Shown: positions 44,781-61,407 of the stretch, piece after piece
How positions within the stretch are numbered: position 1 is the stretch's first letter
How the letters are laid out: each line of letters begins with the position of its first letter
From: Micrococcales bacterium
GTDB lineage: Bacteria > Actinomycetota > Actinomycetes > Actinomycetales > Microbacteriaceae
NCBI GenBank assembly: GCA_017306245.1
Contig: JAFKIY010000002.1
Location: forward strand, 62,001-126,000
Reading direction: 5' to 3'
Length of the DNA stretch: 64,000 nt
The notes under the pieces: model-generated
The model's database searches: none
Told to the model about the DNA's origin: nothing
Seen by the model: the letters and a program-made list of their open reading frames with translations, nothing else
Program-made: the position numbers and the translations under genes

Positions 44781-46000
44781 GTCAAAAACCCTTCTACGAC
44801 GGCCCCTCGCGCGATGACGGTTGTCACCGCGTTGCGGCCGATCCGGTACGCGACATCTTCGTGGCGTGCGACATCCAGAACGATCACGTCAGCCTGCATG
44901 CCCACTTTAAGTGATCCGACACTCTCCTGACGGCCGAGCGCCCGTGCCGAACCGTGCGTCGCCGCCCGCAGAGCCTGGGCAACGGACAGGCCTCCGGTGC
45001 GGCAGGCCATGGCCACTGCGAGCTGCATGTCGGTGACCCAGCAGCCGGGGCAGATATCCGTCGCGAGTGCAAGCTCCATGCCGGCGTCAATCACCCGGCG
45101 CGGATCCAGCGGGCGCGAATGGGCGACAGAGTATTCGAGGCACGGCATGTACACGCCCGCGATACCGGCGTCCCCGAGAGCGCGCAACTCCGCATCCTTC
45201 GTGAAGTTGAGGTGGTCGACGCTCACCGCCCCCAGCTCGATCGCGATGGCTGCTGCGCCGGTGTGGCCGTACGCATCCAGGTGCAGTTTCGGCTTGAGCC
45301 CTGCATCGAGGCCGGCCGAGAGGATGCGCGCCGTCTGCGCGAGGTCGAAATATCCTTCGTCGCAATACACATCACAGAACTCGGCGAGGCCGCGCTCCGC
45401 AACCTCCGGAATGAGGTCGACCACCTCGTCGACGTAGCGGTCCTGCTCCACATCCGCCGGGAACGCGTGGGCGCCAAGGTAGGTGGAGACGATGTCCGCG
45501 GGCATCGTTTCAGCCAGACGCTGGCTGGTTTCGAGCAGCCGCAGCTCGTGCTTCGAATCGAGGCCGTAGCCGCTCTTGCTCTCCAGCGTGGTCGTACCGC
45601 TGTTCACCATCTCGCGAACGCGAGCGGACGACTCCTGCAGCAGCTGCTCTGCCGTGGCAGCACGGGTGGTCGCGACCGTGCCGGTGATGCCGACCGGCAC
45701 TCCGGCGGGAGGCGTCTGCCCGCTCACTTTCGCCGCGTATTCGTCGACGCGGCTGCCGCCGAACACCACGTGCGTGTGCGAGTCCACGAAGCCGGGCATG
45801 ATCACGCCGCCCTGGGCGTCAATCACGCGGTCGGCGCGGTATCCGGACACGTCGCCGACCGCGACAATGCGCCCACCGGAAATGGCGACCCCGCCGCCGG
45901 GGATGAGCCCGATGAGATCGGACGCATCCTCGGCGCAGGTCAGGAGTTCGGCGGCTCCCGTCACCACCAGATCAACGTGCGGCGATTTGCTCTCAGGCAT
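44777..46000 (-). CDS. hutI: Imidazolonepropionase
   Basis: A 407-residue amidohydrolase that opens 4-imidazolone-5-propionate to N-formimidoyl-L-glutamate. PGFVDSHTHVVFGGSR near 75-90 gives the metal and substrate residues, KSGYGLDS near 143, TYLGAHAFP near 170, HLDAYGHTGAAAIAIELGAV near 240, and ALATDICPGCW near 315 are all present. It overlaps hutU by eight bases upstream and hutF by four bases downstream. Confidence 0.95.
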   Translation of the reverse strand: MPESKSPHVDLVVTGAAELLTCAEDASDLIGLIPGGGVAISGGRIVAVGDVSGYRADRVIDAQGGVIMPGFVDSHTHVVFGGSRVDEYAAKVSGQTPPAGVPVGITGTVATTRAATAEQLLQESSARVREMVNSGTTTLESKSGYGLDSKHELRLLETSQRLAETMPADIVSTYLGAHAFPADVEQDRYVDEVVDLIPEVAERGLAEFCDVYCDEGYFDLAQTARILSAGLDAGLKPKLHLDAYGHTGAAAIAIELGAVSVDHLNFTKDAELRALGDAGIAGVYMPCLEYSVAHSRPLDPRRVIDAGMELALATDICPGCWVTDMQLAVAMACRTGGLSVAQALRAATHGSARALGRQESVGSLKVGMQADVIVLDVARHEDVAYRIGRNAVTTVIARGAVVEGFLT

Positions 46001-47768
46001 CGTCCGGACCGAACGTGGCCGTCGGCGTCCACCACAGCGGGACGGAGAGGCCCTCGCCGGGGCCGACCGTGTTCGCCACTTCCTTGGCCCTTGCGTATCC
46101 GGACTGGGCGTGGCGCACCACGCCGATTCCGCTGTCGACCGTGAGTGCCGCCTTGAGCCGGAACGCCGCGACGTCGGTGCCGTCCGCGATCATCGTCACG
46201 CCGGTGTGCACGGAGTCGCCCATGGCGTAGTTGGCCTGGATGGCGATGAGGTCGCACATGCCGGAGGCGTTCAGCAGCCCGTTCAGGTACGGCCAGTCGG
46301 AGATGAGGTCGGAACCGTCCGGCATCGCCTCGGACTCGAACGTCGGGTTGATGATCGAACCGGAGTCGAGGTTGTCCCGCGAGAACGCGACCGGGCCCTT
46401 CACCTCGCCGTTCTTGATGAGTTCGTTGACCGCGAGACCGAACTTCTTGCGCTCGCCGAATCCGAGGTAGCAGACCCGCGCCGGCAGACCCTCGATCGGC
46501 ACGTGCTGGCGGGCGAGCGTGATCCACCGGGTCGCGATGTCGTCGTCGGGGAACAGTTCGAGCACGAGGTCGTCCAGCCGCGCCAGGTCGGCGGGGTCGC
46601 CCGAGGTGCAGGTCCAGCGGAACGGTCCGCGGCCCTCGAGGAAGAGCGGGCGGAGGTACGCCGAGACGAACCCGGGAATCTTCATCGCATCCTCGAAGCC
46701 GTGCACCTGGCATTCGCGGCGGATCTGGTTGCCGTACTCGAACGTGGGGACTCCGTTGTCGAAGAACTGGTTCATCGCCTTCAGCTGGCGCACCATCGCG
46801 GTGCGGGAGATCTCGAAGTAGGCGTCGCGATCCTTCTTGCGGAAGTCCTCCGCCTCCAGAACCGTGTATCCGATGGGCACGTAGGCCAGCGGGTCGTGCG
46901 CCGGAGTCATCTCGGTGACGACATCCGGGCGGAAGTCGTTTTCGAGGCAGTACTCGAAGAGCTCGGTGGCGTTCGCGACGACTGCGATACCCAGCGGCTT
47001 CTTGGCGGCGGCGGCCTCCTTCGCGAGTTCGATGGCGTGCGGGATGGAGTCGGCGAGCACATCCGCGTAGCCGACCTTAATGCGGTTGCGGATGATGCGC
47101 TCGTCAACGTCGGCGCAGATGGCGACGCCACCGAGCATCGTCATGGCGCGAGGCTGGTTGCCGCCCATGCCGCCCATACCGGCGCACACCAGGATCTTGC
47201 CGACCCAGGAGCCGTTGAGGTGGATGTTCGCGACGGAACGCAGTGTTTCGAAGGTGCCCTGGATGACTCCCTGCGTGCCGATGTACTCCCACGGCGAGGC
47301 GGTGTATTGGGCGAAGATCGTGAGGTTCTTGTCCTGGAGCTCGTAGAACGTTTTCCAGGTGGGCCGCACGAAGTTCGTGGTCGCCATGACGACGCGCGGT
47401 GCGAGTTCGTGGGTTTCGAACACGGCCACCGGCATTCCGGACTGCACCACGAGAGTTTCGTCGTCTTCCAGGTTCTTGAGGGACTCGATGATCGCGTAGT
47501 ACGACTCCCAGTTGCGGGCCGCTTTGCCGATGCCGCCGTAGATGACGAGATTTTCGGCGTGCTCCGCGACCTCCATGTTGTTTTCGAGCATCCGCAGGAT
47601 GGTCTCCTGCTTCCAGCCTTTGCAGCGCAGCGTGTCACCGCGCTGGGCCGTGACCTCGTAGAGAACTTCCGGCTTCACGGCGGGAAGCTCACCGAAAGCG
47701 ATACCCGTAGCGTTGCCGCCGGGGTGCTTCGTGTTGATCGTGACGGGGGTGTCGTGGGCGATGGACAT
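45993..47768 (-). CDS. hutU: Urocanate hydratase
   Basis: A 591-residue NAD-dependent enzyme that hydrates urocanate to imidazolonepropionate. Key stretches: YGGIGKAARNWESYYAII, CAGMGGMGGNQPRAMTMLGG (NAD-binding), RVCYLGFGERKKFGLAVN, and the late TGVTMIADGTD. Length is longer than the usual ~555 because of N- and C-terminal extensions. It is 12 bases downstream of hutH with a clear GGAGTA ribosome site. Confidence 0.95.
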   Translation of the reverse strand: MSIAHDTPVTINTKHPGGNATGIAFGELPAVKPEVLYEVTAQRGDTLRCKGWKQETILRMLENNMEVAEHAENLVIYGGIGKAARNWESYYAIIESLKNLEDDETLVVQSGMPVAVFETHELAPRVVMATTNFVRPTWKTFYELQDKNLTIFAQYTASPWEYIGTQGVIQGTFETLRSVANIHLNGSWVGKILVCAGMGGMGGNQPRAMTMLGGVAICADVDERIIRNRIKVGYADVLADSIPHAIELAKEAAAAKKPLGIAVVANATELFEYCLENDFRPDVVTEMTPAHDPLAYVPIGYTVLEAEDFRKKDRDAYFEISRTAMVRQLKAMNQFFDNGVPTFEYGNQIRRECQVHGFEDAMKIPGFVSAYLRPLFLEGRGPFRWTCTSGDPADLARLDDLVLELFPDDDIATRWITLARQHVPIEGLPARVCYLGFGERKKFGLAVNELIKNGEVKGPVAFSRDNLDSGSIINPTFESEAMPDGSDLISDWPYLNGLLNASGMCDLIAIQANYAMGDSVHTGVTMIADGTDVAAFRLKAALTVDSGIGVVRHAQSGYARAKEVANTVGPGEGLSVPLWWTPTATFGPDDA

Positions 47769-47780
47769 GGGTACTCCTTC

Positions 47781-49424
47781 TTACTGGTTAATGGTGCGAA
47801 GCGCGTCGAGAACGGCACCGCTGTGCACGAGTTCGACGGCAGAACGAACTCTGGGGTAGAGAACGGTGTCTTGGGTAATGTGGTCAATGAGGCGGCCGTC
47901 GGCGGAGCGATGCGAGCGCACAAGCTCCAGCACGGTTCGGCTGGCTGGGGAGAGCGCCGACAAATCTTTCCCCTCGAGCTTGAGGCGCAACTCCAGGGCT
48001 TGTGCCGCCATGAGCAGTTCGATGCCGATCACGTTCTCGATGTTGCTGACGACCTGGCGCGCGTGCCGTCCGGCGTTGTTCGCCATGGAGACGTGGTCTT
48101 CCTGGTTGGCGCTCGTCGGGATCGAATCGACGCTGTCCGGATGCGCGAGCGTTTTGCAGTCGGAGACGAGGGCAGCTGCGAGGTACTGCGGCAGCATGAA
48201 TCCGCAGTCCATGCCGACCTGTTCGCTCGCGATGAGCATGTCCGGCAGCCCCCGGTTGAGCGTTCCGTCGGTAAGGCGGAACAGTCGACGCTCGGCGATG
48301 TTGCCGATCTCGGTGACGACGATGGAGAGGAAGTCCGAGGCGAACGCGAGGTATTCGGCATGGAAGTTGCCGCCGGACACCGCTTTGAGGGTGCGCGATT
48401 GCGGGAGATCCGGGAAGACGAGCGGGTTGTCGGTCGCGGCGTTGATTTCGGTCTCGACGATGCCGCGAACGAAGCGCAGGGTGTCCTTGACCGGGCCGAG
48501 CACTTGCGGTGTGCAGCGCAACGAGTAGGCGTCCTGCGGAGGCTGGCGCACCGGGTCACGGTCCACATCCCCGTCGATGAACTCGCTGCCGGCGAGCAGT
48601 TCGCGGATGCGCGCGGCAACCTCGATCTGCCCCCTGTGGCCCCGTGCCTCATGGATCTGAGGCAGGAAGGCGTCGCCGAAACCGGCGAGGGCCTCAATGG
48701 ACATGGCGGCTGTGACTTGAGCGGTTTCGAGCAGGTTTTCGGCATCGGCAAGCGCGAGCGCAGCCTGCGCGGTGGAGAAGGAGGTGCCGTTCGTGAGTGC
48801 GAGGCCTTCCTTCGGGCCGAGCACGATGCGCTCGAGGCCCGCCGCCTTCATTGCGGTGATCCCGCTGACGAGTGTGCCGTCGACGAAGGCTTCGCCGCTG
48901 TCGATGTCCACGTCGTCGCCTGCCGGCCGCGACATCACGATAGCGAGGTGGGCAAGCGGAATGAGATCGCCGCTCGCGCCGAGGGAACCATACTCGGGCA
49001 CGGCAGGGAATACCCCGCGCTCCAGCATGGCCAGAAGTGTTGCGGGAAGCTCGAGCCGCACAGCCGAGTAGCCGCGGGTGAGACTCACAGCGCGGATCAG
49101 CATCGACCCGCGAACGACATCCTCGTCGAGGAAGCGACCGACTCCGCTCGTGTTGGACAGGATGAGTCGTCGCGAGAGCTCGGATGCGTCATCGACGCTC
49201 TCGAAAGCCTGGCGGCCGGCGAGCGATCCGAAGCCGGTGTTGACGCTGTAGATCGGGGCGACGGCCTTACCGGCACGCATGTCGTCGGTGATGGCGCTCA
49301 CCCACTGTTCGCTGACCCGCATCGCTGCAACAGCGCCCTCGGAGATCGTTGCTTTCCGGCGGTCGCGAACGATCGCCAGAAAATCCTCGAGGGTGAGAGG
49401 CTTCTCGCCGATTTCGATGCTCAC
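47781..49424 (-). CDS. hutH: Histidine ammonia-lyase
   Basis: A 547-residue enzyme that converts histidine to urocanate and ammonia. The MIO cofactor forms from the Ala-Ser-Gly in GSLGASGDLIPLAHL near 160. SVNTGFGSLA, TNGTSFSTAQAALAL and QEDHVSMANNAGRHARQVV are also typical. GTG 49424 has GAAGGA upstream and starts just before the domain; the open frame to 49478 is unsupported. It is first in the hut operon, and an operator-like palindrome lies 67 bases upstream. Confidence 0.95.
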   Translation of the reverse strand: MSIEIGEKPLTLEDFLAIVRDRRKATISEGAVAAMRVSEQWVSAITDDMRAGKAVAPIYSVNTGFGSLAGRQAFESVDDASELSRRLILSNTSGVGRFLDEDVVRGSMLIRAVSLTRGYSAVRLELPATLLAMLERGVFPAVPEYGSLGASGDLIPLAHLAIVMSRPAGDDVDIDSGEAFVDGTLVSGITAMKAAGLERIVLGPKEGLALTNGTSFSTAQAALALADAENLLETAQVTAAMSIEALAGFGDAFLPQIHEARGHRGQIEVAARIRELLAGSEFIDGDVDRDPVRQPPQDAYSLRCTPQVLGPVKDTLRFVRGIVETEINAATDNPLVFPDLPQSRTLKAVSGGNFHAEYLAFASDFLSIVVTEIGNIAERRLFRLTDGTLNRGLPDMLIASEQVGMDCGFMLPQYLAAALVSDCKTLAHPDSVDSIPTSANQEDHVSMANNAGRHARQVVSNIENVIGIELLMAAQALELRLKLEGKDLSALSPASRTVLELVRSHRSADGRLIDHITQDTVLYPRVRSAVELVHSGAVLDALRTINQ

Positions 49425-49490
49425 AGGGGTGTCCTTCCAGTTGCTGCCAGCAACGCTAGTCGTGCCGGGAGCAGGCACAAGGGACGATTC

Positions 49491-49510
49491 TCACCAGGTG
49501 AAAATGGTGA
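49491..49510. promoter_or_regulatory. Candidate hut operator
   Basis: TCACCAGGTGA (49491-49501) is a perfect palindrome, and a further GGTGA half-site lies at 49506-49510. It is 67 bases upstream of hutH. The site is suited to a dimeric repressor or activator; an IclR-family gene (63348-64000) is the only regulator of a type known to control hut in actinobacteria seen in the window. Confidence 0.45.
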
Positions 49511-49936
49511 ATCCTGATTTGCGGCAGATGCGCTGATTCAACTCGCCGCCATGGCAGGTTTCACTCGATCGCGTGTCACGCAAGTTCGGACTTTTGCCAC
49601 CTGGTTCGGACAACGACGCTTCAGGCGGACTCCCCAAGGTTGGCCAATACAAACCCCGGCAGCTGGCTGCTCCGAGCGAACCCAGCACACCACAACTGCT
49701 GAGGTTGACATCACAGTGAGGCTGGAAGTCCGCCCGATAGGGGAACGGTCTGCGCAACAAGTCTGGCTCCCTGTACCGGATGGGTCAACGCGAAAGCTTG
49801 ACCGGACTCAATTTGCTGAGTAGCGTCAGGCATACTTACCCAAAATGAAGATCACTGAAAGGTGAGCAGATCCCGAGTCCGGGTGTCAATGGAGAACCCG
49901 ATCCCGACGACATTGACGAAACAATGTAGGTAAGTC
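49511..49936. other. Gene-poor boundary region between hutH and the accessory segment
   Basis: A 426-base stretch. Short overlapping ORFs exist on both strands (49551-49823 plus; 49491-49760 minus), but neither shows a ribosome site, domain or believable composition. Base composition shifts to more A/T toward 49800. An ACTTACC at about 49833 and a GGTAAGT at 49930-49936 are complementary but 90 bases apart. Nothing else was recognised. Confidence 0.6.
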
Positions 49937-49948
49937 ATGGGAGTGCTG

Positions 49949-50644
49949 ATGAAAAAGAGCCGAATTCGTTTGGGCTTCGTTGCGCTGGTCGCGAGTGTCG
50001 TCTTAGTTGGCGGGGTGGCCACGCCGAGTTATGCAGACAGCGGGCAGATTTCGCCGGATGTGCTGGCGTTTATCAACACCAACTTCGATGAACTTGGTGT
50101 CGCCCAAGAGGTGCGGGCGGGCCTGCTCAAAAAATACGCTGCTGGGGAATCATTCGACAATGCTTCGGGTGCCCAGCCGGTGAGCGTGGAGTCCTACAGG
50201 GTTGACATTACCGACTACACACGGGAGGTTTTCGCGGATGGTTCTGTGACGTTGACCTCGCTTGAACGTCCGACGACTCCCACCAAATCATCGAAGGGTC
50301 TTACGCCGTATGGAATTGTCGGGTGCTCATACAAGCTCAGTGGTGGGGTTGCAACATGGTCAAACTGCAAAATCGAGAAGAACAACATCATATTGACGAT
50401 GTGGTACCACGCAGGGTATTGGCGTTACTCAGGTGGCGGCTACGGAACCTCCATCACTAATACTTGGGACTGGGATATTCAAACTGCCGGTGGCGCGTGC
50501 GCTTTTAACTATCTTGGAAACCCGACTTCCACGAAGTCCCGCCTTCGCGCGTACTGCACTGTGGTGCTCGGTATCGGCTCCTCTTACCCCTACTTGGATC
50601 TCGACATCACGTCGAGCACGGTAGCGGTCAACGCGAACTGGTAG
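49949..50644 (+). CDS. Secreted aromatic-rich protein with four cysteines, unknown function
   Basis: About 231 residues. Signal peptide: KKSRIRLGF, a hydrophobic core VALVASVVLVGGVA and a cleavage site after SYA. The mature N-terminal half is helical and polar; the C-terminal half (from about 130) is rich in Trp, Tyr, Gly and Ser and holds four cysteines (GCSYK, SNCKIE, GGACAF, AYCTV), enough for two disulfides. ATG 49949 has GGGAG upstream; ATG 49937 is also in frame. A short hydrophobic reading frame follows directly. No family recognised; role as secreted effector, adhesin or bacteriocin-like protein is open. Confidence 0.75.
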   Translation: MKKSRIRLGFVALVASVVLVGGVATPSYADSGQISPDVLAFINTNFDELGVAQEVRAGLLKKYAAGESFDNASGAQPVSVESYRVDITDYTREVFADGSVTLTSLERPTTPTKSSKGLTPYGIVGCSYKLSGGVATWSNCKIEKNNIILTMWYHAGYWRYSGGGYGTSITNTWDWDIQTAGGACAFNYLGNPTSTKSRLRAYCTVVLGIGSSYPYLDLDITSSTVAVNANW

Positions 50645-52196: not shown

Positions 52197-52835
52197 CTAC
52201 ACCCGACCGCGCCATGGTAGGGAGACCGCGACAACTGCCAGTAGTAAGGCGGGAAGGTAGAACCAGCCGAGGGTCGCGGAAGCGACTACTGCGAACACTC
52301 CTAGCAGCGCGGTGCTGGCGATCGACACAGCGCGCCATCCGCGTTTGCGGGCGATAAGAGGCATTATGGCGAGCAGCAGCGGAATCGTCATCGGGATCAG
52401 CACGATCGGTGAGTTGCTCTGCAGCAGAGTGGTCGCCACGATGATGTGGTCGCCTGAGTCGAGTTGAGTGTCACTGATACCGGCCGGTAGCAGCAGCGCC
52501 GCGAGCGTCGCGGCGACTACCAATGCGAGTACCCCGATCTGGAGCCCGCGCGGCACAGTCAAGTACTTAGGATGGGCGGTGCGACCAGTACGTTCCTCAT
52601 AATCATCTAGTGCCTGTTGGGCAACTTCTTCGGGAGTTCCGAGTGAGCCGAGCACATCGTCGGTGCGGTCGGGATCGTCGCTGGCTGCACCGAGTCCCTC
52701 GCGGATGTGCGCTTCGATTCCGGCAATGACCTCACGCTGGTCCCTTTGAGGGAGCGCCCAGAGGTTGCCGCGCAGTCTGCGGAGATAAAACTGTGCCAGT
52801 CCAGGCAGCACGGTGACTCGATCTGTTGTGTTCAT
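52197..52835 (-). CDS. HAAS-type membrane protein, PadR partner
   Basis: A 212-residue protein. The N-terminal 90 residues are a helical domain of the HAAS/DUF1700-like type: FYLRRLRGNLWALPQRDQRE, EVIAGIEAHIREGL, then LGSLGTPEEVAQQALDDY. Four or so hydrophobic helices fill the rest. In known cases the HAAS domain gates or senses with a PadR regulator. The start overlaps the PadR stop by four bases, so the two are translationally coupled. Confidence 0.8.
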   Translation of the reverse strand: MNTTDRVTVLPGLAQFYLRRLRGNLWALPQRDQREVIAGIEAHIREGLGAASDDPDRTDDVLGSLGTPEEVAQQALDDYEERTGRTAHPKYLTVPRGLQIGVLALVVAATLAALLLPAGISDTQLDSGDHIIVATTLLQSNSPIVLIPMTIPLLLAIMPLIARKRGWRAVSIASTALLGVFAVVASATLGWFYLPALLLAVVAVSLPWRGRV

Positions 52836-53170
52836 GGTTTCTCCTTGACGATGCTACTCACGCTGGCACTGAACGGCTCCCACACGGTGGTGAAGCGGCG
52901 TACGCTCTCTCGTCCGACATCGGTAATGGCGTAATACTTCCGGGCTCGCCCCACGTCCGACTCATCCCAGCGAGTCGTAACCTGTCCCGACTGCCGCAGC
53001 CGGGACAATAACGGGTAGACAGTGCCCTCTCCAGCGAGCAGGCCAAGTTCGCTCATCGTGCGTGCGATGTCCCAGCCGTAGGCCTCTCCATTCCGAAGCA
53101 GAGCCAGTAGGCAGAACTCAAGCGTCCCTTTGCGCAGGTTCGCCAGGGTCCTTTCTTCGGATGACGTCAT
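52832..53170 (-). CDS. PadR-family transcriptional regulator
   Basis: A 112-residue winged-helix regulator. LRKGTLEFCLLALLRNGEAYG opens the domain, followed by GTVYPLLSRLRQSGQVTTRW and GRARKYYAITDVGRESV. ATG 53170 is chosen since the PadR core begins within eight residues; the frame continues to 53311 without support. It probably represses its own operon with the HAAS protein. An inverted repeat lies 106 bases upstream. Confidence 0.88.
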   Translation of the reverse strand: MTSSEERTLANLRKGTLEFCLLALLRNGEAYGWDIARTMSELGLLAGEGTVYPLLSRLRQSGQVTTRWDESDVGRARKYYAITDVGRESVRRFTTVWEPFSASVSSIVKEKP

Positions 53171-53275
53171 GCATAACATGATATCAACTAATGCAAGGTA
53201 CAAAAGACACTCGAGACGGCGTTTCGCGGAACCAAATTGAGAAACCAAGAGAGCCGCATTCCCAAAATCACTTAA

Positions 53276-53294
53276 TACCTTGTATCGCAAGGTA
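53276..53294. promoter_or_regulatory. Inverted repeat, candidate PadR operator
   Basis: TACCTTG-TATCG-CAAGGTA has perfect 7-base arms. A further copy of the half-site CAAGGTA occurs at 53194-53200, close to the PadR start. The palindrome lies between the PadR operon and the secreted-protein operon at 53413, so it could serve either. Confidence 0.5.
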
Positions 53295-53412
53295 AGAAGG
53301 TGTAGCGTCACGGTCGAGGTGACGATATTTTACGATTGGGAAAAGCTGCGATCGGGGGATGCCACCGTAGTCACCTCATTGACACCCTCTGACGGAGCGT
53401 TGGAGGTATGTC

Positions 53413-54231
53413 ATGAAACACACTCGATTGCCGCTGATTGCGGCGCAACTAGGTGTCGCCGCGTTGATCGCCTCGATCGGGATCGCCGCCCCCGCCTACG
53501 CCGACTCTGAGACGTCGCAACTCGTGGCGAATCCTACGACCTACATCGATCACAGTGGCGTGGTCCACTACCAGTTTGATCCGGTGGAGTTGCCGGGTGC
53601 GATCGTTCGGGTCGACGCAGGCACAAGCACGGATGGATCGTGCCAGTTCACTGGTACGGGTTCAGGATCAGCGAAGGACGCGCCGACCATCGAGGTAGGT
53701 TCGGAACTCACCTTCGATCCGGCAACCTGCACACGCCAGATCGCGGTCGGCAAGTATGAGCTGAGCAATGCCCCGGCTTCTGTGTTGGCAACGCTCAACA
53801 TCCCGAAGGGGATGATCACCGACAGCGTAATCGACACCGCGGCATCCGCCCAAGCTGCCCTATCGAACTGGTACGGAATGATGAACGCACGAGTTCAAGA
53901 TCCGATCGGCATCCACGTCTCGGAGACCGAGGCGGAGCACACCTGGAACAGCGGTGGAGTCGTCTCTCATCACAACAGATGGGGCTGGTACTCGCCAACA
54001 GGTTGGAGTCGCACTTCGTCATCGACCCTGAACACGTCAATAGCCACGAACACCCGCGGCACGTTCCAGAACATTATCTTCTGCAACCCATTCGCCGCGA
54101 CCTACACCAATCACAGTCGCACCGAGTTCCGAGGCTACACCTCGGGTCTGTGGGACTGGGGTTACACAATGAGCAAGTCCGGGGACTGTGCCGAGTTGCT
54201 CAGCTACCACTACTCGGTAATCGCACCATGA
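53413..54231 (+). CDS. Secreted protein with four cysteines, unknown function
   Basis: A 272-residue exported protein. Signal peptide KHTRLPLIAAQLGVAALIAS with cleavage after AYA, giving a mature start DSETSQ much like that of the protein at 49949 (DSGQIS). Four cysteines (GSCQF, ATCTR, IFCNP, GDCAEL) could form two disulfides. The C-terminal half is rich in Trp, Ser, Asn and His (HNRWGWYSPTGWSRTSSS). GGAGGT precedes ATG 53413. It overlaps the next gene by four bases. No family recognised. Confidence 0.78.
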   Translation: MKHTRLPLIAAQLGVAALIASIGIAAPAYADSETSQLVANPTTYIDHSGVVHYQFDPVELPGAIVRVDAGTSTDGSCQFTGTGSGSAKDAPTIEVGSELTFDPATCTRQIAVGKYELSNAPASVLATLNIPKGMITDSVIDTAASAQAALSNWYGMMNARVQDPIGIHVSETEAEHTWNSGGVVSHHNRWGWYSPTGWSRTSSSTLNTSIATNTRGTFQNIIFCNPFAATYTNHSRTEFRGYTSGLWDWGYTMSKSGDCAELLSYHYSVIAP

Positions 54232-54860
54232 GTGCGACGGGAATCGGCGCCGCACGGCGAAGCGGTCGGCGTATTTTGTCAGCAATCGTAGGTCTCGCCG
54301 CTCTTGCCCTCGGAATATTCGCTTTCGGACCATCACCGTCTCAAGCGGCCACGCCACTCACGACGAAGGCGACTTTGATTGTCACAGGGTTCGATGCGAG
54401 TGTTGCAGAGGCGAACGGATACAGGGTCGTAACTTCTTCCGACGGCACCGCAACCGTCGTGCCCTCTACGAACAAACCCAACGACTTGTCAAACGGCGTG
54501 CCGATTCCGGCAGGACTAACACGGGCAAAGTCTGGTGGCAGTGTACAACCGAACAACACTGGGTACGGCGAATGTGGCACGTCCTGGCTCTACTTCACGA
54601 GCTCGACCCAGTACCGCACCGGGTTTTCGATCAACGGGTCCTACGGCAACGCGGTTTGGCGAACTTGGCAGGTCAGCAAAACCTCAACTGCCGGAAGTGC
54701 CGGAGACGGATTCAACTCGATCATGAACGCGTCTAGTTGGCAGGAATATCGAGCCTTCGGGCTCGGTGGCACCAATCGCCGCGCGCAGGTTTCTGACGGT
54801 TGGGTGCTCACTGCGTTCGGATTTACTTGCTCAACTATCAAACCCTGGGACACTTGGTGA
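54228..54860 (+). CDS. Secreted protein with two cysteines, unknown function
   Basis: A 210-residue exported protein: twin-arginine-free signal with a hydrophobic core LSAIVGLAALALGIFAFG and a site after SQA. The middle part TGFDASVAEANGYRVVTSSD followed by TVVPSTN resembles small secreted actinobacterial proteins of unknown role. Two cysteines (YGECGT, FTCSTI). It ends in an aromatic KPWDTW. The ATG overlaps the previous stop, so the two exported proteins are made together. Confidence 0.75.
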   Translation: MSATGIGAARRSGRRILSAIVGLAALALGIFAFGPSPSQAATPLTTKATLIVTGFDASVAEANGYRVVTSSDGTATVVPSTNKPNDLSNGVPIPAGLTRAKSGGSVQPNNTGYGECGTSWLYFTSSTQYRTGFSINGSYGNAVWRTWQVSKTSTAGSAGDGFNSIMNASSWQEYRAFGLGGTNRRAQVSDGWVLTAFGFTCSTIKPWDTW

Positions 54861-54886
54861 CTCGTAGGTAGGCGACGAAGGCGTGG

Positions 54887-54920
54887 TCGATCAGACGCCA
54901 TTGGTGGCTTCTGATCGACT
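54887..54920. terminator. Hairpin between secreted-protein genes and small membrane-protein gene
   Basis: GTCGATCAGA (54887-54896) pairs with TCTGATCGAC (54911-54920), with an inner GCCA/TGGC stem and TTGG loop. No T-run follows. It may reduce transcription into the 55017 gene. Confidence 0.5.
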
Positions 54921-55016
54921 GCACCAGTTCGCGGCGACGTTCAGCTTCCACGTTCAACTGGCTAGTAAGAAACCAGATGCGTGCGCACCGTATGAGCCTC
55001 AAACATCGGAGGATCA

Positions 55017-55262
55017 GTGCAGAAAACACTACTCATCATTGCAACGTGGGCAGTCACCGTGGCCATCTCTGTGCTTGGGGTCAATGCCGGGGCAACGATC
55101 TGGTTCTATATGGAGCCAGCGATGGGGTCAATAGATGAGCCAGCCAGCTATTCTGTTGCTGTTTACTCTGGGTTGGTGGCACTAGCTCTGAGCATCGTCG
55201 TGAGTATTGGAATATCCATTCACCTGCTGCGGTGTAAAAAGGTAGTCGTCGCGCACCAGTGA
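55017..55262 (+). CDS. Small two-helix membrane protein downstream of the secreted-protein pair
   Basis: An 81-residue protein with two hydrophobic segments (LLIIATWAVTVAISVLG and VAVYSGLVALALSIVVSIGI) joined by a short acidic loop, and a basic C-terminus. GTG 55017 has GGAGGA upstream. No family recognised. Its position after two exported proteins parallels the short hydrophobic frame after the secreted gene at 49949, so an immunity or anchoring role is a possible inference. Confidence 0.65.
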   Translation: MQKTLLIIATWAVTVAISVLGVNAGATIWFYMEPAMGSIDEPASYSVAVYSGLVALALSIVVSIGISIHLLRCKKVVVAHQ

Positions 55263-55581
55263 TCTTGCGTTCACCGTCCGGCGGTGCGCTCAAAATGTGG
55301 CTTATGTCTCTACTGACAGGCGACGACTCCTCCCGCACGGGTTCGCGCTTGTTCTCGGTGCACCGTCCGCGACCGTGAACGTACCGCGCTACACCCGAGT
55401 GTTGACGATCACCGGACGCCACTTCAAGACCTTGCGGAAGCACTGCCAAGACCATATGTCGCCGAAATGCGGTGCCCGCAGGGGAACCACTTACGGGACG
55501 CTCATGTTTCAGGAAGCGGATCGACTTATGGCAAGGCGCGGCACTAAGTGCGGTCATCTGATGATGTTTGTCCGTTTCGGT
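55263..55581. other. Non-coding or eroded stretch
   Basis: About 320 bases without a believable gene. ORFs on both strands (55297-55614 plus; 55081-55557 minus) have odd composition and no ribosome site or domain. Possibly a decayed gene. Confidence 0.5.
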
Positions 55582-56565
55582 TCACCCGGGGCTGTGCGTC
55601 GAGGATGTAACTGAGGCGACCTTCTGGATACGGACTCGAAGCCCGAGCAGCCGCAGCGAAATGAGGCAACCTGCCAATGTCATCCCGATCAACACGGCTA
55701 TCCCGAAAACATCCTCAAACGCCCTTCTTCCCATAGTGCTCAACGCCACCGCTGCAAAAGGCAAGCCCAAGATTAGGACACTCGCCGCCCACGCCCGCTG
55801 GCCAAATAACCGCAGCAATATTGAGGCCGCGACGACGACCACCGGCGACCAGGCGAGTACCGGCAAGGAGAGTACCGTCCAATTCTCCATCCATGCCGGG
55901 TTCTGAAATAGACGATCGTTCGTCAGCTGCGGCAGGAGTAGCACAATTAATGGCGGCACGAACCAACAAAGCAACCACCGAACCCCCTTCCGACCGGCCG
56001 CTGGGTTTCCGGCCACCACGAGCACAGCAAGCATTATCAGCAGACCGTAGAACGTCCATGTGGGCCGCAAGAACATGCCGCTTGCGTCTGCGAACACTCG
56101 TGTACCGATCGCCAATGGGATTGTCAACGCGATGATCCACCGGCCGGCCACAGTGAAGCCGGCTAAGGACACCAGCAGGGCCGCGAGCCACGCGAAGTAC
56201 AGGAGGATGGCGGGAGAAGCGAAGGGACCGAACGACACCACGTCGACACCAAACATCGATTCCGCGCGGAGTGGGTTCGACTCCAATTGCATGATTGCGG
56301 TGAGCGAGATGGCAGATCCGAGCGCAAGAGCTGCCGTTGACGTTCGATCGCGTACCGCCGGTGAGACCATCGCAGGAAGCATTCGCATCCTGGTGGACAG
56401 GCCATGGGCGGCAAGATTCACCATTTCAGAGATCCGGGGTCGGGTGCGGTGTTCGGCGTCCGCAACATCCATCAGTGTCCCCACCACGACTTCCTCGTTC
56501 GTAGCCCGCCACCATGCCGGATACCACAGTAGGGCCCGTCGGTACTGCCGCGTAAGTGTGCTCAC
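55582..56565 (-). CDS. Multi-helix membrane protein, PadR partner
   Basis: A 327-residue protein. The N-terminus reads YRRALLWYPAWWRATNEEVV-GTLMDVA, an amphipathic WYPxxWR motif typical of membrane proteins encoded beside PadR regulators. About eight hydrophobic helices follow. The start overlaps the PadR stop by four bases. Function unknown; perhaps a membrane sensor or transporter-like protein whose level the PadR protein controls. Confidence 0.75.
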   Translation of the reverse strand: MSTLTRQYRRALLWYPAWWRATNEEVVVGTLMDVADAEHRTRPRISEMVNLAAHGLSTRMRMLPAMVSPAVRDRTSTAALALGSAISLTAIMQLESNPLRAESMFGVDVVSFGPFASPAILLYFAWLAALLVSLAGFTVAGRWIIALTIPLAIGTRVFADASGMFLRPTWTFYGLLIMLAVLVVAGNPAAGRKGVRWLLCWFVPPLIVLLLPQLTNDRLFQNPAWMENWTVLSLPVLAWSPVVVVAASILLRLFGQRAWAASVLILGLPFAAVALSTMGRRAFEDVFGIAVLIGMTLAGCLISLRLLGLRVRIQKVASVTSSTHSPG

Positions 56566-56897
56566 AGTGCGAACCCCTCACGGTATCGACCTAATAACGC
56601 GGTAGCCCTCGCCGCGCGATCCGTGAGACGCGCCGATTCAGTTTCAAGAGCAGCGGCACCTTGGCTGGTGATCGTGAAATATCGGCGATGCCGCCCGGCG
56701 ACCACCTCCGTCCCGGACTCCTCCACCCAGCCCTGACGGGCGAGCCGCTCAAGCGAACCGTACAGCGTGCCCACTTGCAACGTCAGTCTCCCTTCGGACA
56801 GTGTGCCCACCTCGGATATCAGGGCATATCCGTGCTTTCGGCCACCCAGTAACGCCGTCAGGACGAAGAATGTGGGCTCGCGCATCTCGTTACTCAT
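56562..56897 (-). CDS. PadR-family transcriptional regulator (second copy)
   Basis: A 111-residue winged-helix regulator: EPTFFVLTALLGGRKHGYAL, LQVGTLYGSLERLARQGWVE and GRHRRYFTITSQGAAALETE are the PadR core. It differs clearly in sequence from the PadR at 52832. First gene of a two-gene operon with the membrane protein at 55582. Confidence 0.88.
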   Translation of the reverse strand: MSNEMREPTFFVLTALLGGRKHGYALISEVGTLSEGRLTLQVGTLYGSLERLARQGWVEESGTEVVAGRHRRYFTITSQGAAALETESARLTDRAARATALLGRYREGFAL

Positions 56898-57080
56898 GAC
56901 GTGAGGATACTACGGCAACTGAAGTATGTGGCATGCTCTACCGCGTGTCGTGGCAACCCCAGACCGGCATCCGATGGCAAGCCCACGTGGGCACCACTGG
57001 CCAGGATACGAAGTCACGGCAGCACTTCGCGCAGCATCAGGATGGCAGGCTCGAGTTCGTTGGCCTATGTCGGCTGAGCG

Positions 57081-57956: not shown

Positions 57957-58205
57957 ATGAAGACCGCAATTTCTCTTCCCAATGACACTTTTGAGCGCGC
58001 CTCACGCCGCGCGATGGATTTAGGTCTGAGCCGCTCTGAGTTTTTCGCCCGTGCCGCGAACCGCTATCTGGAGGAACTGGACGCCGCGTCGGTGACCGAG
58101 CAGATCAATGCCGCTCTGAAGCAGATCGGCGGGATCGACGATTCGCTGGAAGTTGCGGTCGAATCCGGGCGGCAGCTTCTTCTCGACAGTTCTGACGAAT
58201 GGTGA
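57957..58205 (+). CDS. Antitoxin, ribbon-helix-helix MazE-like
   Basis: An 82-residue protein. KTAISLPNDTFERASRRAMD and GLSRSEFFARAANRYLEEL form the ribbon-helix-helix DNA-binding domain; the C-terminal tail from about 50 is the flexible segment that would bind the toxin. It overlaps the toxin gene by seven bases and should repress its own promoter from the palindrome just upstream. Confidence 0.88.
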   Translation: MKTAISLPNDTFERASRRAMDLGLSRSEFFARAANRYLEELDAASVTEQINAALKQIGGIDDSLEVAVESGRQLLLDSSDEW

Positions 58206-58543
58206 TTGAGCACGGTGGTATCTACTGGGCAGAATTGGGTCCAGCGGTCGACAGTCGTCCGGCAAAGCGACGACCGGTATTAGTGATCCAGTCGAATTCG
58301 TATAACGAGAGTCATCTTGCGACCGTGCTCGTTGCCGTGATCACAACCAACACCGCCCTGGCAACAATGCCAGGCAATGTTTTTCTCGCCGCGACAGCGA
58401 CTGGACTTCCACACGATTCCGTCGCTAACGTGACTGCGATCGTGACGCTCAACAAGGCAGACCTTGCCGATTATGTCGGGCAGGTGCCGGATGTTCTGCT
58501 CGAGGATGTCCATCGCGGTCTAAGACGAGTCCTAGAGTTGTGA
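58199..58543 (+). CDS. mazF: MazF/PemK-family endoribonuclease toxin
   Basis: A 114-residue toxin. The family signatures are visible: GGIYWAELGPAVDSRPAKRRPVLV at the N-terminus (with the catalytic Arg in RRPVLV), TVLVAVITTNTAL, and LPHDSVANVTAIVTLNKADL with the Asp/Ser and Thr positions. It cuts mRNA at short sequence motifs when the antitoxin is degraded. Length is normal and the active-site residues are kept, so the system may be functional. Confidence 0.9.
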   Translation: MVIEHGGIYWAELGPAVDSRPAKRRPVLVIQSNSYNESHLATVLVAVITTNTALATMPGNVFLAATATGLPHDSVANVTAIVTLNKADLADYVGQVPDVLLEDVHRGLRRVLEL

Positions 58544-58614: not shown

Positions 58615-59172
58615 CTAGTGCTCCAAACCTGTCTCGAACTTAATTCGGAGCTTCGAGCGGATCCGAGCGTGCCGACTTCTTACCGTGGCGGGTCTCAGTC
58701 CTAGAAGTGAAGCGGCTTCGACGAGGCTGAATCCATCCCAATAGTGAAGACGGACAATTTCCTGATCGATTGCGTCTAGTTGTTGGATAGCGGAGCGTAC
58801 GACGTCCAGCATCTCGTCATCTGCGTGGTCCGGTTGCGGGGTGTTGAGTTCTTCCGCCAGCCGTTGACGAAGTGCGGTCCGTCGCCTGTTCCCGCGGCGC
58901 TGCCCTGCGAGCACTTTCCTGGCGATGCCATACATCCACATCCTCGACTGAGTTTCGTCTTCCGGAATTGATCGTTCGCGACGCCATACGATCAGCAGGG
59001 TCTCTCCGAGCAGATCCGCCGCATCCTCGTGGTTGCTCGTGCGACGCAGAAAATAATTCAGTAGCTTTCCCGATTCTCGTTCGACAAGGTCGCTCACCTC
59101 GGCGCTCCGATCACGAACCTGAAGGCGATCCCCAGCTCGACGCAACATGAAGGCAGGGTTGCCGATGCTCAA
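58615..59172 (-). CDS. ECF-type sigma-70 family sigma factor
   Basis: About 185 residues. Region 2: LVERESGKLLNYFLRRTSNH and EDAADLLGETLLIVWRRE; region 4: IQQLDAIDQEIVRLHYWDGF followed by SLVEAASLLGLRPATVRSR. TTG 59172 is chosen because it overlaps the upstream stop (TTGA) and AGGGGA lies just ahead of it; ATG 59190 is also in frame. The upstream gene encodes a one-helix membrane protein that may be its anti-sigma factor. Confidence 0.82.
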   Translation of the reverse strand: MSIGNPAFMLRRAGDRLQVRDRSAEVSDLVERESGKLLNYFLRRTSNHEDAADLLGETLLIVWRRERSIPEDETQSRMWMYGIARKVLAGQRRGNRRRTALRQRLAEELNTPQPDHADDEMLDVVRSAIQQLDAIDQEIVRLHYWDGFSLVEAASLLGLRPATVRSRHARIRSKLRIKFETGLEH

Positions 59173-59765
59173 TGAAGTTCCCCTGTGCATTGGTCGGTGA
59201 CCCCATACCCGGTGCCTGTTGGCGTAATTCCTTCGGGGATGAGATCGAAGATGTTCTCGTCCACGGCATGCTGCCACGCGACTAGTTGAACGTCATCCGA
59301 CGTGGCACCCCCAGGCCACCCCACCGTGGCTGCTTCCCACCATGCTCGGTCGCCCTCGTGGGCCAGAGCCGCGTCGTAGATGCGTTGTCCCACTCCGGTC
59401 CAGTCCTGAGCTCGGAGGTATTCAACCTCAGGCGTGGTTAATTCGACGTAGTTGATTTCCATGTTGAACAGGTCGATCGAGCAGGACACGGCGGTACCGG
59501 TGTCGGTTGTGTAGTTCACAGGAATACTGAAATCAGGAACCATGCGCGGCTCCGTCCCTGCGGTCGTAGCGAATGCGATTGCAGGAACCGCCAAAAGCGG
59601 AGCAACAAGCCACCACAGGCGCCGGCCTGGGCTACGGGGACTGGACTTCACGGCCGCACGGGACTCCTCGGCCACCGCACGAATCATGGCCTGGACTCGG
59701 AGGCTCTCCGCGCCCGTCGGCGGCGCACTTCGCGCAATCAGCTCATCAATAGTCGGCTTCATCAT
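59169..59765 (-). CDS. One-helix membrane protein, possible anti-sigma partner
   Basis: About 198 residues. A cytoplasmic N-terminal domain of about 55 residues, one hydrophobic segment (RLWWLVAPLLAVPAIAFATT) and a C-terminal extracellular domain with two cysteines (VSCSIDL, DQCTGEL). Anti-sigma factors have this topology, but the N-terminal ZAS-type HxxxCxxC motif is absent. It is encoded just upstream of the sigma gene and coupled to it. ATG 59765 has AAGGAT upstream. Confidence 0.6.
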   Translation of the reverse strand: MMKPTIDELIARSAPPTGAESLRVQAMIRAVAEESRAAVKSSPRSPGRRLWWLVAPLLAVPAIAFATTAGTEPRMVPDFSIPVNYTTDTGTAVSCSIDLFNMEINYVELTTPEVEYLRAQDWTGVGQRIYDAALAHEGDRAWWEAATVGWPGGATSDDVQLVAWQHAVDENIFDLIPEGITPTGTGYGVTDQCTGELH

Positions 59766-59981
59766 GAGATCATCCTTCGCACTCAGGTGGGCATTCAACT
59801 AGTACGTGGCCGGCATCGTCAAAAACGTTGCAACGACATGGACATTCCACCCAGGGGGCGGGTATCGACCTACTTCTGACTGCTTTGGACCGGCCGCAAG
59901 CGGAACGTAAGCCGGGTCGTGGTAGTGATGCGTGGCGGACCATCCCACCAGCCTCACTCACCCAGTTCGCTGCCGTCGAAC
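59766..59981. other. Flank of the IS256-type element
   Basis: About 216 bases left of the insertion sequence. A short frame (59828-60043) runs into the element and would continue on the other side if the element and one target copy were removed, giving a stop near 61530. No domain is recognisable, so an interrupted gene is possible but unproven. Confidence 0.4.
59973..59981. repeat. Target-site duplication, left copy
   Basis: CCGTCGAAC directly before the left end of the insertion sequence; the identical 9 bases follow its right end at 61408-61416. Confidence 0.85.
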
Positions 59982-61407
59982 GGTCGCGTCCCGTGGAGTG
60001 GTGTAAATCTCGGCTGGTGAGCGTCGCGTCGTCGACGTGGTGAGCCATCGTGCGATGGTCAGTGAGTACCGATCAAAGTCACTCACAGAAAGACACAATC
60101 ACATGATGGCTCTAGACCAGTCTGCCCTGCTCGACCTGCTTGGCGAGTTGAAACTCACCGATGTCTCCGACCGAATCCGGGTCGCGACCGAGAAGCTCTA
60201 TCAGGAGCTGATCGATGCCGAAGCGACTGCGTTCATCGGCGCCGGACCGTTCGAGCGGTCGAGCGAACGCACCACTCAGCGAAACGGTTCACGCCTAAGA
60301 ACATTGACCACAACTGCCGGGGATCTAGATTTGAAAATCCCGAAGCTGCGTACAGGATCTTTCTTCCCTGCCCTGCTGGAGCGGCGCCGCCGGGTCGACC
60401 AGGCCCTCTTCGCGGTGGTGATGGAGGCGTATTTGCATGGCGTCTCGACCCGGAAGGTCGACGATCTGGTCAAGGCCCTCGGCGCCGAGACCGGGATCTC
60501 CAAATCCGAGGTGTCGCGCATCTGCGCGGGTCTGGACGAGGAGATCGCGGTGTTCCGCGACCGCGACCTGGCCTCGCTCGACTACCCGTATGTGTTCCTC
60601 GATGCGACCTATTGCAAAGCCAGGGTCAACCATCGAATCGTCTCCCAGGCGATCGTCGTCGCCGTTGGGATCGCCGCCGACGGACGCCGTGAAGTTCTCG
60701 GCTTCGATGTTGGTGACAGCGAGAACGAGGGCTTCTGGACAGCATTCCTCAGGTCGATGAAGACCCGTGGTCTGGGCGGAGTGCAGTTGGTCATGTCCGA
60801 CGCTCACAGCGGGCTGAAGAAAGCGATCGCCACCGTGTTCCAGGGCGCATCCTGGCAGCGATGCCGGGTCCATTTCATGCGCAACGTCCTCTCGGTCGTG
60901 CCGAAGGGCTCCCAGGACATGGTCGCCTCGATCATTCGCACGATCTTCGCCCAACCCGACGCCGAGCACGTGTCGACCCAATTCGCCGAGGTCACCAGCA
61001 TGCTTGGGCGCTCTCACCCGAAGGTCGCCGCCATGCTCGATAATGCCCGCGACGACCTCCTGGCCTTTACCGGATTCCCCCAACGGCACTGGCGACAGAT
61101 CTGGTCCACGAACCCGCTGGAGCGGGTCAACAAGGAAATCAAACGCCGCACCGACGTCGTGGGTGTCTTCCCCAACCCGGCCACACTGTTGCGACTGGCC
61201 GGCGCAGTTCTGGTCGAGCAACACGACGAATGGGAAGCTGGCGACCGCCGCTACTTCTCGGAAAGCTCCATGCTCGAACTGAAGGCAATGAACGCCGCCA
61301 TCCCCGCCAGCGAGGAGGTGAATGCCATCCCAGAACTCACCGCCGCCTAAACTAAACCCAACTGACCGCACGGTGTCGAGAAACTCCACCACTCAGCGGG
61401 ACGTGAC
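59982..61407 (+). mobile_element. IS256-family insertion sequence, complete
   Basis: About 1.43 kb with one transposase gene. The ends are imperfect inverted repeats: the left reads GTCGCGTCCCGTGGAGTGGT from 59983 and the right, on the minus strand, GTCACGTCCCGCTGAGTGGT from 61407. Both are flanked by the 9-base duplication CCGTCGAAC. Intact ends, intact transposase and identical target copies point to a recent insertion. Confidence 0.9.
60103..61350 (+). CDS. IS256-family transposase
   Basis: About 415 residues. Family blocks: LYQELIDAEATAFIGAGPFE, LKIPKLRTGSFFPALLERRR and the DDE catalytic residues in YVFLDATYCK (first Asp), VQLVMSDAHSGLKKAI (second Asp) and STNPLERVNKEIKRRTDVVG (Glu). No frameshift or stop. 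ATG 60103 is chosen; the frame is open to 60037. The product would move this element and related copies. Confidence 0.95.
   Translation: MMALDQSALLDLLGELKLTDVSDRIRVATEKLYQELIDAEATAFIGAGPFERSSERTTQRNGSRLRTLTTTAGDLDLKIPKLRTGSFFPALLERRRRVDQALFAVVMEAYLHGVSTRKVDDLVKALGAETGISKSEVSRICAGLDEEIAVFRDRDLASLDYPYVFLDATYCKARVNHRIVSQAIVVAVGIAADGRREVLGFDVGDSENEGFWTAFLRSMKTRGLGGVQLVMSDAHSGLKKAIATVFQGASWQRCRVHFMRNVLSVVPKGSQDMVASIIRTIFAQPDAEHVSTQFAEVTSMLGRSHPKVAAMLDNARDDLLAFTGFPQRHWRQIWSTNPLERVNKEIKRRTDVVGVFPNPATLLRLAGAVLVEQHDEWEAGDRRYFSESSMLELKAMNAAIPASEEVNAIPELTAA

Follow-up and report, generated by a model that had tools for sequence, protein, structure and literature searches.

The window analysed here is a 64,000-nucleotide segment of a Microbacteriaceae genome (contig JAFKIY010000002.1, positions 62,001 to 126,000). 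Between its positions 52197 and 56897 it carries two genes for short PadR regulators, PadR1 and PadR2, each paired with the gene for a membrane protein and together enclosing genes for secreted proteins. We consider it probable that these are two independent, autoregulated PadR modules that are neighbours by chance, and that PadR1 acts as a repressor of its own operon and of the divergent secreted pair sec1-sec2. What sequence comparison provides is the gene anatomy, a division of the operators into two classes, the positions of their sites, and a second case, in one other genus, of the secreted pair next to PadR1 and its HAAS-domain partner; from these we infer repression, binding of a dimer, the promoters hit and a sensing role for both membrane proteins. 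The locus is made up as follows.

52197–52835, minus strand: HAAS-domain membrane protein, partner of PadR1 (212 amino acids (aa); Pfam HAAS, E 2.4e-11, residues 17–74)
52832–53170, minus strand: PadR1, short PadR regulator (112 aa; Pfam PadR, E 9.1e-20; overlap CCATGA)
53180–53202: second PadR1-type operator, candidate and degenerate (position weight matrix (PWM) score 14.7), in the usual autoregulatory place directly upstream of PadR1
53276–53294: perfect palindrome TACCTTG-N5-CAAGGTA in the divergent region, strongest candidate PadR1-type operator (PWM score 26.7)
53413–54231, plus strand: sec1, secreted protein of no known family (272 aa; signal peptide by eye)
54228–54860, plus strand: sec2, secreted protein of a wider Microbacteriaceae family (210 aa; signal peptide by eye)
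55017–55262, plus strand: small membrane open reading frame (ORF) (81 aa; hydrophobic by eye), operon membership uncertain
55582–56565, minus strand: WYPxxWR membrane protein, partner of PadR2 (327 aa; no Pfam or NCBIfam match)
56562–56897, minus strand: PadR2, short PadR regulator (111 aa; Pfam PadR, E 2.2e-15; overlap CTGTGA)
56907–56927, minus strand: candidate PadR2-type operator ATACT-N11-AGTAT (PWM score 18.8), ending 9 bases before the PadR2 start

All genes that a preliminary description had placed in this interval were confirmed at their positions, and the only Pfam matches among the seven genes of the locus are PadR in both regulators and the HAAS domain; no Pfam family was found in 55582–56565 or in any of the three central ORFs. 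Identical copies of the HAAS protein and of sec1 occur in one further genome of the same genus (G007), and an identical copy of the WYPxxWR protein occurs in an uncultured Microbacteriaceae metagenome-assembled genome. The enclosed secreted operon had been drawn from 53413 to 55262. It is secure for sec1-sec2 (53413–54860), whose genes overlap by 4 bases, and for these only; membership of the small ORF is uncertain because a 156-base gap separates it from sec2 and because it was not found beside the pair in G036, the sole other genus with sec1-sec2.

TACCTTG-N5-CAAGGTA is, on sequence grounds, an operator class of HAAS-linked PadRs, where HAAS-linked denotes a match to a two-sequence profile (A3) at E ≤ 0.001. 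In the window, the TACCTTG palindrome already pointed out in the preliminary description is exact (TACCTTG-TATCG-CAAGGTA) and is the sole match at up to 3 mismatches, a match at 3 mismatches being present also in 40 of 100 shuffled windows. A site within 3 mismatches of TRCCTTG-N5-CAAGGYA precedes the HAAS-linked PadR in 14 of 16 loci, against 1 of 30 loci in which the PadR is linked to a WYPxxWR protein; the loci are related by descent, so this contrast does not compare independent cases. The 16 are those with a PadR among 22 HAAS loci compared, six of which (L063–L066, L077 and L080) had no detected PadR, and second matches of genomes already present (L083–L086) were left out. Of the partners run through Pfam besides the window's own, those of L053, L067 and L081 scored over the HAAS cut-off and that of L071 just under it.

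A PWM built without the window and without loci L072 and L074 placed its three top sites in the 64 kb at 53274, 53180 and 53163 (scores 26.7, 14.7 and 13.8; maxima in five shuffles, 8.9–12.8), and all three (53163–53296) lie in or at the edge of the intergenic region between PadR1 and sec1. Across the 2.68-Mb genome the palindrome is found at up to 2 mismatches in two places, which is not above the backwards control (3); both adjoin PadR genes, one being the window locus and the other lying on contig C7. Its exact form is present in 5 of 299 genomes of the family (backwards control, 0), in three of them immediately at a PadR gene and in two inside the same conserved coding gene.

Matches to sec1 were obtained in 3 of the 299 family genomes, namely its own, G036, and G075, where the match is weak and partial and no PadR was found at the locus; among 396 genomes of the order only its own matched. 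In G036, which belongs to a different genus, sec1, sec2, PadR1 and the HAAS gene stand in a row on one strand (54%, 47%, 50% and 36% identical, respectively, to their window counterparts), there is a 4-base overlap between the last two, and the stretch separating sec2 from PadR1 contains a PadR1-type site. The sec2 family is wider, with matches in 19 of 299 family genomes. A plasmid search returned nothing for sec1 and one weak match for sec2, on Xylanimonas pXCEL01 (28% identity, E 2e-4). A structure model of sec1 was of no use (mean predicted local distance difference test score (pLDDT) 32, two sequences). Within a few kilobases of a sec2-family gene, a gene for an extracytoplasmic function (ECF) sigma factor is present in the window (58615–59798, minus strand), in G036 (L053:5628–7137) and on the Xylanimonas plasmid (L087:2524–4078), and in the latter two it is adjoined by a gene for a CU044_5270 family protein; at 18 other sec2 loci, flanks of 1.5 kb yielded no relative of these sigma factors.

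Taken together, these features suggest the following mechanism. A PadR1 dimer would sit on TRCCTTG-N5-CAAGGYA sites, giving autoregulation at the weak site at its own start and repression of sec1-sec2 at the perfect palindrome, which is placed centrally in the divergent region and covers the likely sec1 promoter. The HAAS protein, coupled to PadR1 through the overlapping start, would sense the envelope or membrane and release PadR1. Separately, PadR2 would bind its own ATACT-N11-AGTAT site and be modulated by the WYPxxWR membrane protein, and the secreted operon would not be among its targets. The best promoter-like site on the plus strand (53280–53308, toward sec1) overlaps the palindrome, the best on the minus strand (53205–53178, toward PadR1) overlaps the operator at 53180–53202, and that of PadR2 (56934–56907) overlaps the PadR2 operator. 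Because neither of the first two scores above shuffled sequence and the third barely clears the 95% value of the shuffles (9.7 versus 9.6), the promoters that the operators hit are something we infer. A general promoter scan gave no more sites than were found in shuffles.

The failure of the two promoter-like sites under the PadR1-type operators to exceed shuffles is one of several points that weigh against this reading. Two of the 16 HAAS-linked PadRs, those of L072 and L074, have no good site (6 and 4 mismatches, respectively). Nor is the palindrome class exclusive to HAAS-linked PadRs: the C7 PadR (L001, G000:C7:163499–166720), which overlaps by 4 bases the gene for a 447-aa partner without Pfam match, has one too, and this regulator might bind the PadR1-type site of the window as well. 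No PadR1-type site precedes sec1 in G036, where the best other site in the contig scores 7.5, and PadR1 control of the pair is not conserved in form. The recurrence of the pair rests on that one other genus, and no PadR was found in the approximately 1.5-kb flanks of 18 further loci of the sec2 family or in 10 kb of the Xylanimonas plasmid.

Observations of this kind also lend some credit to an alternative that we regard as unlikely, in which PadR1 regulates only itself, the palindrome at 53276 belongs to a PadR1 promoter far from the gene, giving a long leader, and sec1-sec2 came to stand divergently beside it by chance. Such an arrangement would agree with G036, where the site precedes PadR1-HAAS only, with the other HAAS–PadR loci that have a site, where the PadR gene is close by, and with the want of a PadR near most sec2 relatives. 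However, the second site, at 53180, already occupies the usual autoregulatory position, and the stronger site, 106 bases from PadR1, would be left unexplained. The same secreted pair, moreover, adjoins PadR1-HAAS in two genera. The proposal that a PadR controls the exported proteins is plausible for PadR1, given an operator of its class in the divergent region and the G036 arrangement, and is unsupported for PadR2.

The evidence that separates PadR2 from the central operon comes first from its operators. PadRs linked to WYPxxWR proteins have in common a site that resembles ATATATCGATCANNTGAGTAT and lies near the start codon, the left side of the family consensus being ATATATCG-like, and in each of the 30 loci no more than 2 of 100 shuffles attained the leave-one-out score. 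A PWM from which the window was left out has its best match in the 64 kb at 56907–56927 (18.8), the promoter of PadR2 itself. Elsewhere in the window it reaches at most 9.9, within the range of shuffled-window maxima (8.0–11.8), and it gives no PadR2-type site at the central secreted operon. The 9.9 match is at 49832, before a gene for another secreted protein (49937–50644) without a family match over the cut-off. A wider PadR2 regulon could not be drawn from the genome, since the consensus discriminates too poorly (with up to 3 mismatches allowed, 114 matches versus 34 for the backwards control); among the matches listed, two sites lie at most 250 bases upstream of other PadR domains (C7:706769 and C7:380961).

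Co-occurrence points in the same direction: none of the 46 other family genomes with WYPxxWR relatives has a sec1 match, and G036, which has sec1 with PadR1-HAAS, gave no WYPxxWR match. On these two grounds, operator class and co-occurrence, we reject the suggestion of the preliminary description that the two PadR modules share the sensing of envelope stress and act together in controlling the exported proteins, a view favoured by the proximity of two PadR units flanking the secreted operon and by the weak match at 49832, and one that we now hold to be very improbable.

The 4-base overlap between regulator and partner was also considered as a sign of linkage between the two units. Both overlaps in the window are exactly 4 bases, as had been described. 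This is, though, ordinary in both families: the same overlap is present in 30 of 30 WYPxxWR-type loci (the window and 29 others), where the PadR gene ends in ATGA or GTGA and the partner starts inside, and in all 16 HAAS-type loci with a PadR. For the former, 27 overlaps were read directly and three (L031, L036 and L037) were read from that start; for the latter, 15 were read directly and one (L070) was taken from the ORF table. As the overlap is common to all examined loci of both families, it provides no evidence linking PadR1-HAAS to PadR2-WYPxxWR, and it was rejected as such a sign.

Relatives of the WYPxxWR protein were found in 47 of 299 genomes of the family and in 5 of 89 genomes of the phylum, its own included in each case. 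A PadR gene lies directly upstream in all 29 family loci fetched besides the window, from 46 other matching genomes in which some matches were weak and partial, and in all 4 loci fetched from other families of the phylum. An alignment covers 23 of the 30 proteins. Across these 23 members, any Pfam or NCBIfam model with a match hits a single protein (best E 0.003), and HAAS is not among their Pfam matches at E ≤ 0.1. The two partner families were taken to be unrelated in the preliminary description, and this holds at the profile level, where hhalign of HAAS against WYPxxWR gives a probability of 0.1%; a HAAS-like N-terminus in WYPxxWR is unsupported by the profile comparison. The structure model of the WYPxxWR protein (mean pLDDT 82) predicts three N-terminal helices (blocks at 82–97) followed by a helical bundle, and a Foldseek search of the whole model against the PDB gave nothing at E ≤ 0.001.

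That the WYPxxWR proteins form, alongside HAAS, a second and hitherto undescribed type of PadR partner seems to us as likely as not. Such a partner would join an N-terminal domain of three helices to a multi-helix membrane part and would hold or release its own PadR, with the 4-base overlap, a conserved operator of its own, and a spread beyond Microbacteriaceae in the phylum. The genome has a second WYPxxWR–PadR pair on contig C3 (L004, G000:C3:153932–157153), also with a 4-base overlap. In L118, a locus of phylum genome G691, the match is confined to the first 92 positions of the profile, the WYPxxWR N-terminus; this seems fused to a different membrane part, and the N-terminal domain may be mobile. 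A literature search on PadR with coupling terms returned nothing on WYPxxWR by title, the name WYPxxWR itself not being searchable, and no paper was found on PadR with the permease prefix domain.

Three further features lie nearby. A toxin–antitoxin pair is likely at 57957–58543, where an antitoxin of VapB type and a toxin of ChpB/MazF type are weakly matched, and an IS256 family transposase (60037–61350) is close to the region. A 1313-aa open frame at 45576–49517 (plus strand), antisense over an ORF that is aromatic ammonia-lyase-like by eye (47781–49478), is probably a high-GC shadow frame.

The analysis turns a neighbourhood observation into two separable regulons with defined candidate operators. 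It draws attention to a common family of PadR partners that no model found in Pfam or NCBIfam covers, and it gives the HAAS-linked PadRs of Microbacteriaceae a recognisable operator for target prediction.

Known PadR systems offer parallels to both modules. The best NCBIfam match of both regulators is TIGR03433, an acidobacterial PadR paralog family (E 1.9e-18 and 5e-17), yet both fall below its curated cut-off of 101.8 bits (66 and 62 bits). Clostridium difficile cdPadR1, of the PadR-s2 subfamily, needs an inverted repeat TACT-N11-12-AGTA for binding (PMC5050560). PadR2 resembles it in being short (111 aa, compared with approximately 110 residues) and in its putative operator, which immediately precedes the PadR2 gene and holds TACT-N11-AGTA exactly, a repeat that is exact, however, in only 2 of the 30 WYPxxWR-linked loci. 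Unlike cdPadR1-like PadR-s2 proteins, PadR2 does not have the conserved tryptophan in the C-terminal helix, which PadR1 has (alignment by eye), and it is not close in sequence to those of solved structure, matching no PDB sequence at E ≤ 1e-5 (PadR1 matches 40). Bacillus cereus bcPadR1, also PadR-s2, forms a two-gene unit with BC4207, a membrane protein of unknown function (PMC3506622), as PadR2 does with WYPxxWR, the two membrane proteins being likened by description only; the bcPadR1 site is described as ATGT/ACAT-like, which differs from that of PadR2.

For PadR1 the relevant model is the HAAS–PadR dyad, in which a membrane signal is passed from HAAS to PadR and for which envelope stress has been proposed (PMC11237479); the HAAS signalling and the envelope-stress signal that we suggest for PadR1 are taken over from that proposal. 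The interval 52197–53170 has a standalone PadR winged helix (112 aa), a HAAS domain with the GxP motif (P68 invariant and G66 nearly invariant among 13 aligned sequences) and adjoining genes. PadR2-WYPxxWR falls outside the dyad for want of a HAAS domain in the partner. In the available portions of PMC11237479 and PMC6624303 we met no operator sequence for PadRs linked to HAAS proteins, and a literature search for the palindrome half-site with PadR gave, among the matches listed, no title on a PadR regulator. The closest studied parallel, as far as the available portions of these reports indicate, is the LltR operon of Listeria, which encodes a PadR, a DUF1700 membrane protein and a DUF4097 exoprotein and which is induced about 100-fold in an lltR mutant (PMC6624303). 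The exported proteins of the window differ in being divergent and of no described family; like the dyad and LltR, the window combines a standalone short PadR, an adjacent HAAS membrane protein with GxP, and an exported protein nearby.

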